This document shows, one piece after another, positions 8,638 to 54,490 of a stretch of DNA of 64,000 bases; the stretch's first letter is position 1; every line of letters starts with the position of its first letter. Location of the stretch: contig WTIZ01000038.1 of assembly GCA_011525035.1 (NCBI GenBank), forward strand, positions 1-64,000, given 5' to 3'. The translations under genes and the position numbers were made by a program. The notes beneath the pieces are model-generated. The model saw only the letters and a program-made list of their open reading frames with translations, was not told the origin of the DNA and did no database searches. Origin of the DNA: Cryomorphaceae bacterium (lineage in GTDB: Bacteria; Bacteroidota; Bacteroidia; Flavobacteriales; Schleiferiaceae).

Positions 8638-9486
8638 ATGATCAATTATCAAGGGGATATTATCGAGCTGAACGCATTGCCTGTTCAAGACGTGAAAAGA
8701 GCTACGATGTACGGAGATGCCGTATTTGAAACCATCCGCATGCGCGATAATAAGTTGTTGTTTGTCGAAGATCACTACTTCCGTTTGATGGCAAGTATGA
8801 GGATCCTTCGAATGCCCATACCGATGGAGTTTACCCCGGAATTCTTCGTTGATGAAGCCAACAGGTTGGCTGAAGAAGTAGCAGTAACAGATGGACGGTT
8901 GAGACTACAGGTCGTTCGTAAATCTGAGGGTAAGTATACGCCTGACGAAAACAACGAATGCGTTTGGTGGATGGAACTTGAAGAACTGAGTACTCAAGAT
9001 TATACTTGGACACCGAAAGGACTGAAGGTGGATCTATTCAAAGACCATTACATTCAGCCGGGACTTTTATCGACATTGAAATCTTCAAATGCACTGCCGT
9101 ACGTACTTGCGGGCATTTTTGCCAAGGAAAATGGTTTTGATGCAATGCTATTGGTAAATGATAAAAAGATGTTAGTCGAGGCAAACGCGGCTAATGTCTT
9201 TGTCTTAAAGGACAACATTTTAAAGACTGCTCCTTTGGAGGATGGACCGTTGAGAGGTGTCTTCAGAAAGAACCTTATTGGCTGGGCAAAAGAAATTGGC
9301 CTTGAAATCAAAGAGGAAAGTATCAATCCTTTTGAACTTCAGAAAGCCGATGAAATCTGGCTTACTAATACCATAAGTGGCGTACAATGGGTGGAGAAGT
9401 ACAGAAAGCGTACTTATAAGGGCGATAAAGCAAAAGAGCTAATCGAACTGCTTCAACGCAAATTGAACGTCTTAGGGGCCCTTTAA
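8638..9486 (+). CDS. Class IV PLP-dependent aminotransferase / aminodeoxychorismate lyase-like
   Basis: 282 residues, fold-type IV PLP enzyme. Visible signatures are GDAVFETIR near residue 26, the Schiff-base lysine K148 in STLKSSNALPYV, and the LVEANAANVF motif with the PLP-contacting Glu. The same fold serves branched-chain aminotransferases, D-amino-acid aminotransferases and PabC. The length and the VFETIR start fit PabC or a short branched-chain-type enzyme, but no residue I can see decides between them. It has its own -7 box after a terminator. Its 3' end overlaps the convergent yqgE gene by 4 bases. Confidence 0.85.
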   Translation: MINYQGDIIELNALPVQDVKRATMYGDAVFETIRMRDNKLLFVEDHYFRLMASMRILRMPIPMEFTPEFFVDEANRLAEEVAVTDGRLRLQVVRKSEGKYTPDENNECVWWMELEELSTQDYTWTPKGLKVDLFKDHYIQPGLLSTLKSSNALPYVLAGIFAKENGFDAMLLVNDKKMLVEANAANVFVLKDNILKTAPLEDGPLRGVFRKNLIGWAKEIGLEIKEESINPFELQKADEIWLTNTISGVQWVEKYRKRTYKGDKAKELIELLQRKLNVLGAL

Positions 9487-10046
9487 TTTAGCAACGGGTC
9501 GGAGGGGGCATTTGCCCAAAGCGCATACTTACCGCCCATTTGTTTCATCAGTGTTCTCCAAGCATCACTTGTAGCAGAGAGAGGGTCAATGTTGAATGGA
9601 GGCTCCAGTACAATCCAAGTATCACTTTTTAACTCTTCCTCTAGTTGACCTGGAGACCAACCGCTATATCCTAAAAAGAACTTTGGTTGTGGCAGAGGCA
9701 TGGATAGCTCTTTTTGTTCTGCATACAATACTTTGAATAATTCAAAGTCACCACCGAGGTAGAGTGAATTACCAACTTCCACGGCTCCCGGCAACTTGTC
9801 GTAACCGTGCAGATAGAACAAGGCATCTTGTTCAACCGGACCGCCATAAAAAATAGTGTCCCTTCCACTAAATTCGTCGATAAAGTCCTGGGCAATAAGG
9901 GAGGAAACCTTATTCAAAGTGAAGCCTAGCGAACCTTCGGCATCGTGTGCAGTTAGGTACACAACACTTTGTTCAAAGAATCCATCATTGATCAAAGGCT
10001 TGGATACGAGGATGCATCCTTTTTTAGGGGTATTAGTCTGCTCCAT
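9483..10046 (-). CDS. YqgE/AlgH family protein
   Basis: 187 residues, the usual size of this family. The N-terminus GCILVSKPLINDGFFEQSVVYL corresponds to the family opening (LIAMP-x2-D-x2-F-x-R-SV-x-L), and FYGGPVEQDALFYLH and FLGYSGWSPGQLEEEL are clear family hallmarks. The molecular role of YqgE/AlgH is not established; AlgH was named as an alginate regulator in Pseudomonas. Here it is divergent from pdxH with only 17 bases between the two ATGs, and both starts are 4 bases from a shared symmetric -7 element. Confidence 0.93.
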   Translation of the reverse strand: MEQTNTPKKGCILVSKPLINDGFFEQSVVYLTAHDAEGSLGFTLNKVSSLIAQDFIDEFSGRDTIFYGGPVEQDALFYLHGYDKLPGAVEVGNSLYLGGDFELFKVLYAEQKELSMPLPQPKFFLGYSGWSPGQLEEELKSDTWIVLEPPFNIDPLSATSDAWRTLMKQMGGKYALWANAPSDPLLN

Positions 10047-10050
10047 TACA

Positions 10051-10059
10051 CTAATTTAG
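10051..10059. promoter_or_regulatory. Symmetric -7 element shared by yqgE and pdxH
   Basis: CTAATTTAG reads as TAATTTAG on the plus strand (10052-10059) and TAAATTAG on the minus strand (10058-10051). Both are TAnnTTTG with one mismatch. The plus copy is followed by 4 bases and the pdxH ATG (10064); the minus copy is followed by 4 bases and the yqgE ATG (10046). No TTG lies at the expected -33 distance on either side, so the call rests on the -7 box and the symmetric spacing. Confidence 0.5.
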
Positions 10060-10063
10060 CATT

Positions 10064-10699
10064 ATGGATTTACATAACATACGAGAGACCTACAATTTTG
10101 ATTCATTAGACACTGATAAGCTAAAGGACAGTCCTATGGATCAATTCCAACATTGGTTCGAGGAATACAAGCAATTGGGCGTTAAGGACTACAACGCCAT
10201 GGCTATTTCAACTGTGAATGGAGATGTTCCCGAGAGTAGAATTGTCCTATTGAAGGAGATTCGTGATAACGGATATGTCTTCTATTCAAACTACGGTAGC
10301 ACTAAGGGTAAAGCCCTTGAGGCCAATCCCAATATAAGTGCCTTGTTTTTTTGGCGTGAACAAGAGCGTCAAGTTCGAATTAGTGGGAAAGTGGTTAAGA
10401 TCGATGAGAAGGAAAGCAAGTCCTATTTTGAAACGAGGCCATACCTCAGTAAAATAGGAGCAGCCGCTTCAAATCAAAGTCGACCTATTGGTTCTCGTAA
10501 AGAGTTAGAAGATAAGTTCGATTCGTTCACCTCGAAGTACCCGGAAGGTTCAGACGTTCCTATGCCTTCTGAGTGGGGTGGGTATTTAATCATTCCAAAC
10601 CGATATGAATTCTGGCAGGGTAGAGAGGGAAGACTCCACGACCGTCTAGTCTTTATTCTGGAGGACGGCCACTGGAATATTCAGCGCATTCAACCTTAA
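10064..10699 (+). CDS. pdxH: Pyridoxamine/pyridoxine 5'-phosphate oxidase
   Basis: 211 residues, normal PdxH length. The family features are in order: an N-terminal R-x2-Y start (IRETYNFDSLD), PESRIVLLKEIRDNGYVFYSNYGSTKG (FMN and PLP site), LFFWREQERQVRISG, and the C-terminal EFWQGREGRLHDR with the substrate-binding Arg residues. The enzyme oxidises PMP or PNP to PLP with FMN in the cytoplasm, supplying cofactor for enzymes such as the aminotransferase at 8638. The ATG sits 4 bases after a TAATTTAG box, so the message may be leaderless. A bidirectional terminator follows. Confidence 0.97.
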   Translation: MDLHNIRETYNFDSLDTDKLKDSPMDQFQHWFEEYKQLGVKDYNAMAISTVNGDVPESRIVLLKEIRDNGYVFYSNYGSTKGKALEANPNISALFFWREQERQVRISGKVVKIDEKESKSYFETRPYLSKIGAAASNQSRPIGSRKELEDKFDSFTSKYPEGSDVPMPSEWGGYLIIPNRYEFWQGREGRLHDRLVFILEDGHWNIQRIQP

Positions 10700-10710
10700 A
10701 TACAGGTATA

Positions 10711-10745
10711 AAAAAAGCCCTCTCCGTGTGGAGAGGGCTTTTTAT
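10711..10745. terminator. Bidirectional terminator between pdxH and the HU gene
   Basis: A perfect 10-bp stem AGCCCTCTCC (10716-10725) and GGAGAGGGCT (10730-10739) has a GTGT loop. An A run precedes it and a T run follows it, so it provides a U-tract in both directions. It separates the convergent pdxH and HU genes. Confidence 0.93.
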
Positions 10746-16378: not shown

Positions 16379-17640
16379 CCTTCGTATTTATCTTTCCACA
16401 TGGCCTTTTGTTGGGCGCTGATTTGCTGTTCTTTTGGGTTGGCTGCAGGCGACCACAATACACTGCCTTGAATGTCTTTTGGCAAGTATTCTTGCGCAAC
16501 GAAGCCCCCTGAGTGATCGTGTGGATAGAGATACCCTTTGCCGTGACCTAAATCTCTTGCAAGTGCACTCGAAGCATTTTTAAGATGATCTGGGACCTCG
16601 AGGTTCCCCGTTTGCTGAACCAATTTTTGTGCCTTGCCAATGGCAGTATAAGCACTGTTTGATTTTGGTGAAGTGGCCAAATAGATAGTGCACTGGCTTA
16701 AGATGATCCTGCTCTCTGGCCATCCTACGCGCTCCACGGCACTAAAGGTTTCATTAGCGAGCATCAAGGCGTTTGGATTGGCGAGGCCGATATCTTCTGC
16801 CGCCGAAATGATCAATCTGCGTGCAATAAACTTCACATCTTCACCACCTTCAATCATTCGAGCGAGGTAGTATACCGCAGCTTGTGGATCGGAGCCTCTA
16901 ATGGATTTGATGAAAGCTGAAATGACATTGTAATGCTCATCACCACCTTTGTCGTATCTAATTTGTGCGTTGCTTAGGACATTTTGCGCGAACTCTTCAT
17001 CTATCGGTACACCCGACTGCCCTTGCTGAAAACAGAGCTCTACAAGGTTATAAAGCTTCCTTGCATCGCCCATACTTTGACGAATCAAGAAGTCGTGTGC
17101 GGTGATCTTGAGTTCCTTTTGGGAAGCGTATTCTGTCGCATTCGCCAGGTCAATCATCTTAGTCAGATCCTCTTTTGAATGTGAATTCAACACATACACC
17201 TGCATCCTAGAAAGCAATGCTGCATTGATTTCAAAAGACGGATTCTCTGTAGTGGCACCGATGAGCGTGATCCAACCTCGTTCAACAGCGTGGAGCAGAC
17301 TATCTTGTTGGCCTTTGTTAAAACGATGAATCTCATCGATGAATAGTATGGGGCGCTTGCTGTCAAAAAGGCTCTTTTTTTCGGCTGTTGCAAGCACTTC
17401 ACGTACATCTTTGACACCAGCACTTACAGCGCTTAGTTGATATAAAGGCGCTTCTAGTTCTTTGGCTAAGAGCAACGCAAGTGTTGTTTTCCCAACTCCT
17501 GGGGGTCCCCAGAGGACAATGGAGGGTAATCTTCCGATATCTAAGCTTCGGCGCAATGCGCCATTTTGACCTACGAGGTGTTCTTGGCCTAAATATTGGT
17601 CCAATGTCTGTGGTCGAAGCTGTTCTGCAAGCGGTTTCAT
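16375..17640 (-). CDS. rarA: Replication-associated recombination protein A (RarA/MgsA AAA+ ATPase)
   Basis: 421 residues. After the family start MKPLAEQLRPQTLDQYLGQ come the Walker A GPPGVGKTTLA (about residues 46-55), Walker B FIDEIHRFNKGQQD, sensor 1 GATTENPSFE, and a C-terminal tetramerisation region (AAVYYLARMIEGGED, RLIISAAEDIGLANPNA, YLYPHDHSGGF). RarA acts at stalled replication forks with SSB. Its ATG is 4 bases from a TACTTTCG box (one mismatch to the -7 consensus), and only 26 bases separate it from the divergent rhomboid ATG. Confidence 0.97.
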   Translation of the reverse strand: MKPLAEQLRPQTLDQYLGQEHLVGQNGALRRSLDIGRLPSIVLWGPPGVGKTTLALLLAKELEAPLYQLSAVSAGVKDVREVLATAEKKSLFDSKRPILFIDEIHRFNKGQQDSLLHAVERGWITLIGATTENPSFEINAALLSRMQVYVLNSHSKEDLTKMIDLANATEYASQKELKITAHDFLIRQSMGDARKLYNLVELCFQQGQSGVPIDEEFAQNVLSNAQIRYDKGGDEHYNVISAFIKSIRGSDPQAAVYYLARMIEGGEDVKFIARRLIISAAEDIGLANPNALMLANETFSAVERVGWPESRIILSQCTIYLATSPKSNSAYTAIGKAQKLVQQTGNLEVPDHLKNASSALARDLGHGKGYLYPHDHSGGFVAQEYLPKDIQGSVLWSPAANPKEQQISAQQKAMWKDKYEG

Positions 17641-17644
17641 AACT

Positions 17645-17662
17645 CGAAAGTAACTATCTTTT
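17645..17662. promoter_or_regulatory. Back-to-back -7 boxes between rarA and the rhomboid gene
   Basis: Minus-strand TACTTTCG (17652-17645) lies 4 bases before the rarA ATG; plus-strand TATCTTTT (17655-17662) lies 4 bases before the rhomboid ATG at 17667. Each has one mismatch to TAnnTTTG and they are 2 bases apart. No -33 TTG is seen at 17-23 bases on either side. Confidence 0.45.
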
Positions 17663-17666
17663 CGCT

Positions 17667-18416
17667 ATGTCGGAATGGAGTAAATATGGAATTCACAAGG
17701 GTCTGTTCTTATGGCCTGGTTTATGGGTACTTACGGCATGGCTCATCTTTGCTTTTGAGCATGCTTCTGGAAACTCATTGAGCGCTTATGGATTGATTCC
17801 AGGAAACTTAGGAAGTTGGTACGGACCTCTTACTTTCCCGTGGTTGCACGGAGATTTGAATCACATCACGAGCAATACGATTAGTTTGTTTTTTGTTGGC
17901 GCCTTGATTCGTTACAGTTTTCCGAAAGTATTCGATATGGTGTGGGCCATAAGTTTACTAGCACCTGGGATTATTTTATGGTTCATAGGTCGTCCAAATG
18001 TTCACATTGGCGCCAGTGCTTGGCTGTATGCTTTAGTAGCATTTGTATTCTTTAGTGGTGTACTACGGTTACACATACGCCTGCTAGCACAGAGTATGCT
18101 TATGGTGTTCTTATACGGGAGCTTTGTTTGGGGAGTGTTGCCTCACGATCCGTCCATTAGTTATGAAGGGCATTTGAGTGGGGCAGTAGTAGGGTTCTTG
18201 ATCGCAATATGGTTTCGAAAGATTGAACCTATTGAGTCACTTAAAGACCAGAAGCCAATTTTAGAGGAGGAGGTTCCTTGGGACGATTGGAAGCACCCCT
18301 ACGAACGAGCGTTGGACTTCGAAGAGGTTATCCCAACTCTTGATACACCGTCGATACGGCCACAAGACCAGCAGTTTCGGTACGAAGACGGCTCGAGCCC
18401 AGATGAATTGGCCTAG
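17667..18416 (+). CDS. Rhomboid-family intramembrane serine protease
   Basis: 249 residues with about six hydrophobic segments. H61 and H66-x3-N70 in WLHGDLNHITSN match the rhomboid loop and helix 2 pattern. The nucleophile motif is G115-A-S117 in HIGASAWLYAL, and the second catalytic residue H169 lies in GHLSGAVVGF. These suit an active intramembrane protease in the cytoplasmic membrane, cleaving unknown substrates. The final 60-odd residues are an acidic, soluble tail; the last 89 bases of the gene lie antisense to the conserved 3' part of rsmE. The start is 4 bases from a -7-like box. Confidence 0.9.
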   Translation: MSEWSKYGIHKGLFLWPGLWVLTAWLIFAFEHASGNSLSAYGLIPGNLGSWYGPLTFPWLHGDLNHITSNTISLFFVGALIRYSFPKVFDMVWAISLLAPGIILWFIGRPNVHIGASAWLYALVAFVFFSGVLRLHIRLLAQSMLMVFLYGSFVWGVLPHDPSISYEGHLSGAVVGFLIAIWFRKIEPIESLKDQKPILEEEVPWDDWKHPYERALDFEEVIPTLDTPSIRPQDQQFRYEDGSSPDELA

Positions 18417-50177: not shown

Positions 50178-51162
50178 TTCCTAGTTGAGCAAGTGTAGTA
50201 AGTTTCGGTGCTTCAGGAGCATTAACTCCATCTTCAAGTTGATCCTTTGAAATATACTTATGAATGCTATCGGCAAGATTAGAATCGATAAAGGACTGTA
50301 ATATTCTTGCACCACCTTCAACCAAAATGTGATTCAGACCGAAATCTAACAACTTAGGCACCCATTGATCTAAATTCCTGGGGTCACAATTGATTCCGGA
50401 ATACCCCTGCGGCAATTTATTACCGATAATTATAGGCTGAACTGCTAAGCTAGCGAGCCATTCTCGTTGCAAGGGAAAGTCTTGGCTAAGTAAAATGATA
50501 GGGGTAGGGCTTTGACCAGACCATTTTCTAGTGGTTAAACTAGGCCTGTCGAAACATGCAGTTTTAGAACTAATCAAAATACCGTCGACAGATCCACGAA
50601 GTTGATGTGTTCTCAATGCAGCTAATGGACCGCTTATGCTCAAAGCTTTTTCCTCAGCAGTTCTGTATCCGTCGATATGGCCCGAATCATTCTCAGCCCA
50701 CTTCAACGTGAAATGAGGCCTATTCTTGGTCATATTCGTCCAAAAGACCTCGTTCAGCTGCCTGTATACCTTTGGTGAAGGCGCAAACTCTACTTTGATT
50801 CCATGATTTCTAAGATGAGCGACACCCTTCCCGTCAACCTTACTATGAGGATCACCAGTACCAATAACCACATGAGGAATACCATGAGAAGAGATAAGTT
50901 CACAGCAAGGTGGTGTCTTGCCGTAATGGGCACAAGGTTCTAGAGAGCAATATAAAATGCTCTGCTTCAGTAAATCATGGTTTTCGACACTTCTAATGGC
51001 CATGACCTCTGCATGAGGTTCTCCAGCCTTTCTATGGTAACCTTCTCCTATGATTACACCATTGTGAACCACGACTGCACCTACCATAGGATTGGGAGAT
51101 GTAGTGCCTCTGCCATAGTTAGCGAGTTGTAGGCAACGTGTGAGAAACTTACTGTGGTTCAT
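50155..51162 (-). CDS. ribD: Bifunctional diaminohydroxyphosphoribosylaminopyrimidine deaminase / reductase RibD
   Basis: 335 residues. The N-terminal deaminase has the zinc site HAEVMAIRS (His-Ala-Glu) and CSLEPCAHYGKTPPC (two Cys). The C-terminal reductase domain (about 150-335) has GSVDGILISSKT and HILVEGGARILQSF. The enzyme performs two steps of riboflavin synthesis from the GTP-derived pyrimidine. Its promoter is the best in the window: a TTG, 19 bases, TACCTTTG, then 4 bases and the ATG, so the message should be leaderless or almost so. It leads the ribD-yigZ-protease operon. Confidence 0.96.
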   Translation of the reverse strand: MNHSKFLTRCLQLANYGRGTTSPNPMVGAVVVHNGVIIGEGYHRKAGEPHAEVMAIRSVENHDLLKQSILYCSLEPCAHYGKTPPCCELISSHGIPHVVIGTGDPHSKVDGKGVAHLRNHGIKVEFAPSPKVYRQLNEVFWTNMTKNRPHFTLKWAENDSGHIDGYRTAEEKALSISGPLAALRTHQLRGSVDGILISSKTACFDRPSLTTRKWSGQSPTPIILLSQDFPLQREWLASLAVQPIIIGNKLPQGYSGINCDPRNLDQWVPKLLDFGLNHILVEGGARILQSFIDSNLADSIHKYISKDQLEDGVNAPEAPKLTTLAQLGNDRYERS

Positions 51163-51166
51163 AGCT

Positions 51167-51196
51167 CAAAGGTAGGAGGCTGTGATGTAATTTCAA
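51167..51196 (-). promoter_or_regulatory. Promoter of ribD (TTG-N19-TAnnTTTG, 4 bases from the ATG)
   Basis: On the minus strand TTG (51196-51194), 19 bases, and TACCTTTG (51174-51167) match the consensus at every fixed position, and AGCT separates the box from the ATG at 51162. Given where Bacteroidota -7 boxes usually sit relative to +1, transcription would begin at or within about two bases of the start codon. Confidence 0.85.
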
Positions 51197-51201
51197 GCCA
51201 A

Positions 51202-54490
<3,289 letters not shown>

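Follow-up and report, generated by a model that had tools for sequence, protein, structure and literature searches.

In the 64,000-nucleotide stretch of DNA analysed here (the window), the genes yqgE and pdxH diverge from start codons that are only 17 bases apart. The genes were identified by profile matches, DUF179/AlgH-like for yqgE (1.3e-35) and TIGR00558 for pdxH (1.1e-71). The features of the locus are the following.

9483..10046, minus strand: yqgE (DUF179/AlgH-like), 187 aa; ORF call and profile match.
10064..10699, plus strand: pdxH, pyridoxamine 5'-phosphate oxidase, 211 aa; ORF call and profile match.
10051..10059, no single strand: putative symmetric sigma-A -7 element CTAATTTAG (CTAA-n-TTAG), common to both directions; sequence, column conservation and sister-genus palindrome.
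10052..10059, plus strand: predicted -7 box of pdxH, TAATTTAG, at -12 to -5 of the start at 10064; sequence and mapped position in F. psychrophilum (PMC9723704).
10051..10058, minus strand: predicted -7 box of yqgE, TAAATTAG, at -12 to -5 of the start at 10046; sequence.
10064, plus strand: predicted leaderless start of the pdxH mRNA, the A of its ATG; 4-nt box-to-start distance and the -12 leaderless peak.
10046, minus strand: predicted leaderless start of the yqgE mRNA, the A of its ATG, 18 bp from the pdxH start; box-to-start distance, the -12 peak and the 18-bp spacing of bidirectional promoters (PMC10268837).

The spacer reads CAT (10044-10046, the yqgE start on the minus strand), TACA, CTAATTTAG (10051-10059), CATT and ATG (10064-10066, pdxH). 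The palindrome CTAA-T-TTAG has its center at 10055. The first bases of the two ATGs, the A residues at 10046 and 10064, lie equally far from it on either side, 18 bp from one another. The initial annotation had described a symmetric element 4 bases from each ATG with 17 bases between the start codons, and the sequence agrees with that description. Because an in-frame TAA is present within CTAATTTAG on both strands, neither gene can begin further upstream, and N-terminal extensions of YqgE or PdxH are excluded. The first 50 nt of the predicted yqgE and pdxH mRNAs showed no RNA folding beyond that of shuffled sequences. At the far end of pdxH, a GC-rich inverted repeat with T-runs, recognized by eye at window positions 10709-10745 between pdxH and a convergent HU-family gene, is probably a bidirectional terminator.

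We compared the element with promoters mapped in flavobacteria. The sigma-A box of F. psychrophilum, TAnnTTTG, has been mapped at -12 to -5 (PMC9723704), and in F. johnsoniae 4 or 5 nt separate the box from the start (PMC6847099). TAATTTAG and TAAATTAG each carry five of the six specified bases of TAnnTTTG. The single mismatch per box, already noted in the initial annotation, is an A at -6 on each strand. An 18-bp spacing of starts pairs position -12 of one strand with position -6 of the other, so that TAnnTTTG cannot be self-complementary with a T at both. If the T at -12 is kept, an A is forced at -6, and the self-complementary optimum becomes CTAAnTTAG, the observed element. From the published box we thus infer that the mismatch is what the symmetry requires. 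An A at -6 was found in 5 of the 24 TAnnTTnG boxes at -12 or -13 in the window's genome, those of yqgE and pdxH included. As T at -6 is nearly invariant among mapped F. johnsoniae promoters (PMC6847099), the A should weaken both directions, and both promoters are probably weak. A TTG at a usable -33 distance is absent for both genes, on both strands, as had been remarked before; its absence had also been taken as a possible sign of weakness, an argument that does not hold, since mapped promoters of F. johnsoniae likewise have a weak -33 motif (PMC6847099). For yqgE, positions -34 to -32 fall within pdxH codons and hold an invariant ATG, which is no more than suggestive as a counterpart of that motif.

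Bidirectional promoters known from E. coli and Salmonella most often space their starts by 18 bp, with reciprocal -7T/-11A and a T at -18 (PMC10268837; PMC12825309). The 18-bp spacing of the predicted starts, the reciprocal -7T/-11A and the -18T are all present here at the sequence level. Most likely, CTAATTTAG is a bidirectional housekeeping promoter of the Bacteroidota sigma-A type that gives rise to two leaderless mRNAs, those of yqgE and pdxH. RNA polymerase carrying the housekeeping sigma factor would bind these 9 bp in one orientation or the other, with TAATTTAG driving pdxH and TAAATTAG driving yqgE. Transcription would start at the A residues of the two ATGs, symmetrically about 10055, and both mRNAs would open with AUG and no leader. 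With -12T, -11A and -7T required on both strands, a fixed distance from box to start and a start that coincides with the ATG, the spacer would be fixed at 17 bp. Three of these predictions are absent from the initial annotation: two leaderless mRNAs, an 18-bp distance between their starts and a mismatch required by the symmetry. A counterpoint is that a 5-nt box-to-start distance, as in some F. johnsoniae promoters, would remove the A of the AUG. On geometric grounds the two polymerase orientations would exclude each other sterically, as stated for E. coli bidirectional promoters (PMC12825309), though they would hardly compete in practice as long as basal activity is low. In the E. coli promoters tested, basal activity was too low for competition to matter and none was seen (PMC12825309); regulatory coupling of yqgE and pdxH is therefore not to be assumed.

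Homologous loci were present in 54 of the 60 relatives searched. Every one of the 23 genomes of the same genus with a pdxH gene has a spacer of exactly 17 bp and predicted starts 18 bp apart, though identity drops to 53% for YqgE and about 60% for PdxH. T10052, A10053, T10057 and A10058 are invariant in 23/23 genomes, and with them the reciprocal -11A and -7T of both strands and the -12T of both directions. The bases that serve one direction only, C10051 and A10054 (-5G and -8T of yqgE) and T10056 and G10059 (-8T and -5G of pdxH), are each retained by 22 or all 23 of the genomes. Three genomes deviate (G003 for pdxH, G024 and G002 for yqgE), by one base each and in one direction, at -5 of pdxH in L008, at -8 of yqgE in L010 and at -5 of yqgE in L014, never at -12, -11 or -7. 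Were only one direction functional, drift would be expected either at C10051 and A10054 or at G10059 and T10056; neither pair drifts, which argues that function is not limited to one direction. The initial annotation had proposed that one shared element drives both genes and that its symmetry be checked in relatives. No loss of symmetry was seen, and the conservation of both arms supports that proposal.

Parsimony changes were counted on a YqgE+PdxH tree of 21 of the 23 same-genus genomes. The block ACTAATTTAG, columns 10050-10059, underwent 2 changes in total over its 10 columns (0-1 per column), versus a mean of 5.1 per site for 102 synonymous third positions of yqgE and pdxH on the same tree. 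Columns 10060-10063 underwent 3-5 changes each. The 9-mer CTAATTTAG alone is at chance level in the window (1 present, 0.71 expected); it is its conservation, not its mere occurrence, that exceeds chance. Codons 2, 3 and 5 of pdxH (GAT, TTA and AAC) are also invariant in the 23 genomes; of the 39 two- or three-fold sites of pdxH that were tested, those of GAT and AAC alone underwent no change. This region, 10067..10080, corresponds to -21 to -34 of the yqgE promoter, and F. johnsoniae promoters have an AT-rich motif near -28 (PMC6847099). The conservation of these early codons might reflect an upstream promoter contact for yqgE or a constraint on translation initiation of a leaderless pdxH mRNA.

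We conducted a box census on 843 kb of the window's genome, with 653 ORFs called and 271 likely transcription-unit heads. The TAnnTTTG boxes upstream of start codons fall into two groups, a broad one at ~23-40 nt and a sharp one at exactly -12. For TAnnTTnG, 11 genes have the box at -12, whereas the other positions average 1.8 (Poisson P 3e-6), and only 4 have it between -22 and -14. With their boxes at -12, yqgE and pdxH are both members of the sharp group and carry a box at the position typical of leaderless genes. The sister-genus genome G034 shows the same peak, with 10 boxes at -12. A point against the leaderless reading is that such mRNAs form a minority in flavobacteria, 5.5% in F. psychrophilum (PMC9723704). 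CTAAnTTAG occurs only twice in the 843 kb, both times at the -12/-13 box position, 4-5 nt before an ATG; the sole other CTAATTTAG, at L101:16377-16390 (G000:C50), precedes a 116-aa ORF, 5 nt from its ATG, again at the leaderless box position.

Other divergent pairs were also noted. At window positions 17640-17667, two genes are separated by 26 bp, with TACTTTCG at -12 of the minus-strand gene, the leaderless position, and a weaker TATCTTTT at the same position of the plus-strand gene. The pair at 51162-51202 is 39 bp apart, and its minus-strand gene has TACCTTTG at -12, making it a leaderless candidate. In G034, several divergent pairs 39-48 bp apart (L162:16311-16359, L163:8063-8106 and L169:5629-5668) have a box at 12-17 nt from each of the two start codons. 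Divergence of leaderless or near-leaderless genes, each with its own box, thus seems common in that sister-genus genome.

The history of the element was traced in other genera of the family. In the sister genus, CTAAnTTAG lies between yqgE and pdxH in 19 of 20 loci, with A or T at its center; the exception, L144, reads TTAATTTAG. The start codons are there 5-6 nt (yqgE) and 7-9 nt (pdxH) from the palindrome, a shift of 1-5 nt, and the flanks change. This genus and that of the window are sisters on the YqgE+PdxH tree, with a support of 0.97. Eight of ten other genera have a TAnnTTTG box with T at -6 no more than 110 bp upstream of pdxH, in six cases 12-31 nt from the pdxH ATG, start codons having been picked automatically so that single distances are approximate. 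The yqgE-pdxH spacer of these genera measures 38-103 bp where measurable. The 17-bp arrangement is thus probably derived, the shared element having arisen by the collapse of a longer spacer.

Within the family, the exact pattern CATN4CTAAnTTAGN4ATG occurs once per genome, at the yqgE/pdxH locus only. It is rare across the class: a class-wide scan showed no enrichment, the pattern being matched in 2 genomes besides that of the window versus ~9 for the reversed control. Class- and order-wide scans returned few matches outside the genus and one true second gene pair, in another Bacteroidota family, where asparagine synthase and a PBP4-type D-alanyl-D-alanine carboxypeptidase diverge from a 17-bp spacer with CTAATTTAG (L150:1501-1523). 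That arrangement is kept in a second species (L172:1311-1333), whose proteins are 68% and 62% identical, and by its sequence it represents an independent occurrence of the predicted yqgE/pdxH architecture. Two further matches were rejected as gene pairs, G224 (L151) because no gene opened on one side and G657/G755 (L182, L181) because one side held only a 6-aa frame. It is tentatively conceivable that double-leaderless bidirectional promoters, with start codons 18 bp apart serving as the two start sites of one self-complementary -7 element, are a recurrent Bacteroidota device, and that competition between orientations ties together the outputs of both genes, here YqgE and the PLP-making PdxH.

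The conserved palindrome might also be the operator of a dimeric transcription factor controlling both genes, with promoters elsewhere or overlapping. Two conserved arms between divergent genes are typical of operators, the site of a small dimeric repressor would look alike, and the center base can flip. However, nine bp is short for this purpose, the element sits exactly at -12 to -5 of both ATGs, where the leaderless boxes of the genome peak, and no regulon copies were found elsewhere in the 843 kb, where both copies precede an ATG as described. Furthermore, no widely conserved alternative box was found in the 250 bp upstream of pdxH in the 23 genomes, and upstream of yqgE there is only a partial one at -77, inside pdxH. 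We thus consider an operator unlikely. The box at -77, of a weaker, one-mismatch type in 11/23 genomes, would also fit a situation in which one direction only is real at the element, the promoter of the other gene is inside its neighbor and the symmetry is incidental, as chance symmetry can arise. Conserved strict boxes inside the neighboring genes were searched and none was retained: there was none for pdxH, and for yqgE the strict version at -77 is found in 2/23 genomes. A single direction is improbable, given that the one-direction bases of both arms are each retained in at least 22/23 genomes, that both arms persist in the sister genus despite changes in the flanks and that, in the window's genome, the 250 bp upstream of yqgE and of pdxH contain no strict box.

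A translational origin of the conservation, in the form of context signals around the two start codons instead of a promoter, appears very improbable. Flavobacteria do use an A-rich context upstream of AUG (PMC6847099), and the first pdxH codons are unusually conserved, but few spacer positions vary as much as the four bases beside the pdxH ATG, and the conserved block begins 5 bases away. The block is symmetric about the center of the spacer, not about either ATG, and the sister genus keeps its sequence while the distance to the ATGs varies. Chance resemblance combined with phylogenetic inertia, for which the chance-level frequency of the 9-mer would speak, is barely credible, as it is already contradicted by the 2 changes of the block on the tree that gave the synonymous mean, and by the presence of the element at the homologous place in two genera.

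A bidirectional promoter with two leaderless mRNAs, the reading we favor, would superimpose promoter, start-site and start-codon constraints in 17 bp, which would explain the intergenic distance frozen across the genus. The arrangement belongs to a group of small-genome Flavobacteriales (a 2-Mb assembly here), an order assigned on the basis of gene content and promoter type. It suggests that bidirectional promoters extend to a divergent Bacteroidota sigma factor, with the predictable self-complementary CTAAnTTAG, and that selection can preserve them as drivers of two mRNAs instead of merely tolerating them as noise. It may also offer a natural system for the study of polymerase-orientation competition and of leaderless translation without Shine-Dalgarno signals. 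A search of an incomplete literature collection found no paper naming both yqgE and pdxH, and none on double-leaderless symmetric promoters among the papers listed.

Three known systems invite comparison. The element resembles Bacteroidota sigma-A (sigma-ABfr) promoters, with their -7 TAnnTTTG and weak -33 motif, in its T-12, A-11, T-8, T-7 and G-5 and in its position at -12 to -5, and differs from them at -6, where the symmetry calls for an A on both strands instead of the T. A TA-like box ~12 bp upstream of the start codon has been described for leaderless genes of various bacteria, Bacteroidetes/Chlorobi included (Zheng et al. 2011, PMC3160421); the box at -12 of the ATG is shared with those genes, whereas here one box would serve two leaderless genes on opposite strands. 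With the symmetric -10 bidirectional promoters of Warman et al. 2021, as far as they are presented in the papers citing them (PMC10268837; PMC12825309), the locus has in common a single melted element that would be used in both orientations, starts predicted 18 bp apart, the reciprocal -7T/-11A, the -18T and the expected mutual exclusion. In contrast to those promoters as presented there, the box is the Bacteroidota TAnnTTTG, so that symmetry costs the T at -6, and both mRNAs are predicted to be leaderless, with start codons that would be the start sites and an intergenic length fixed at 17 bp.
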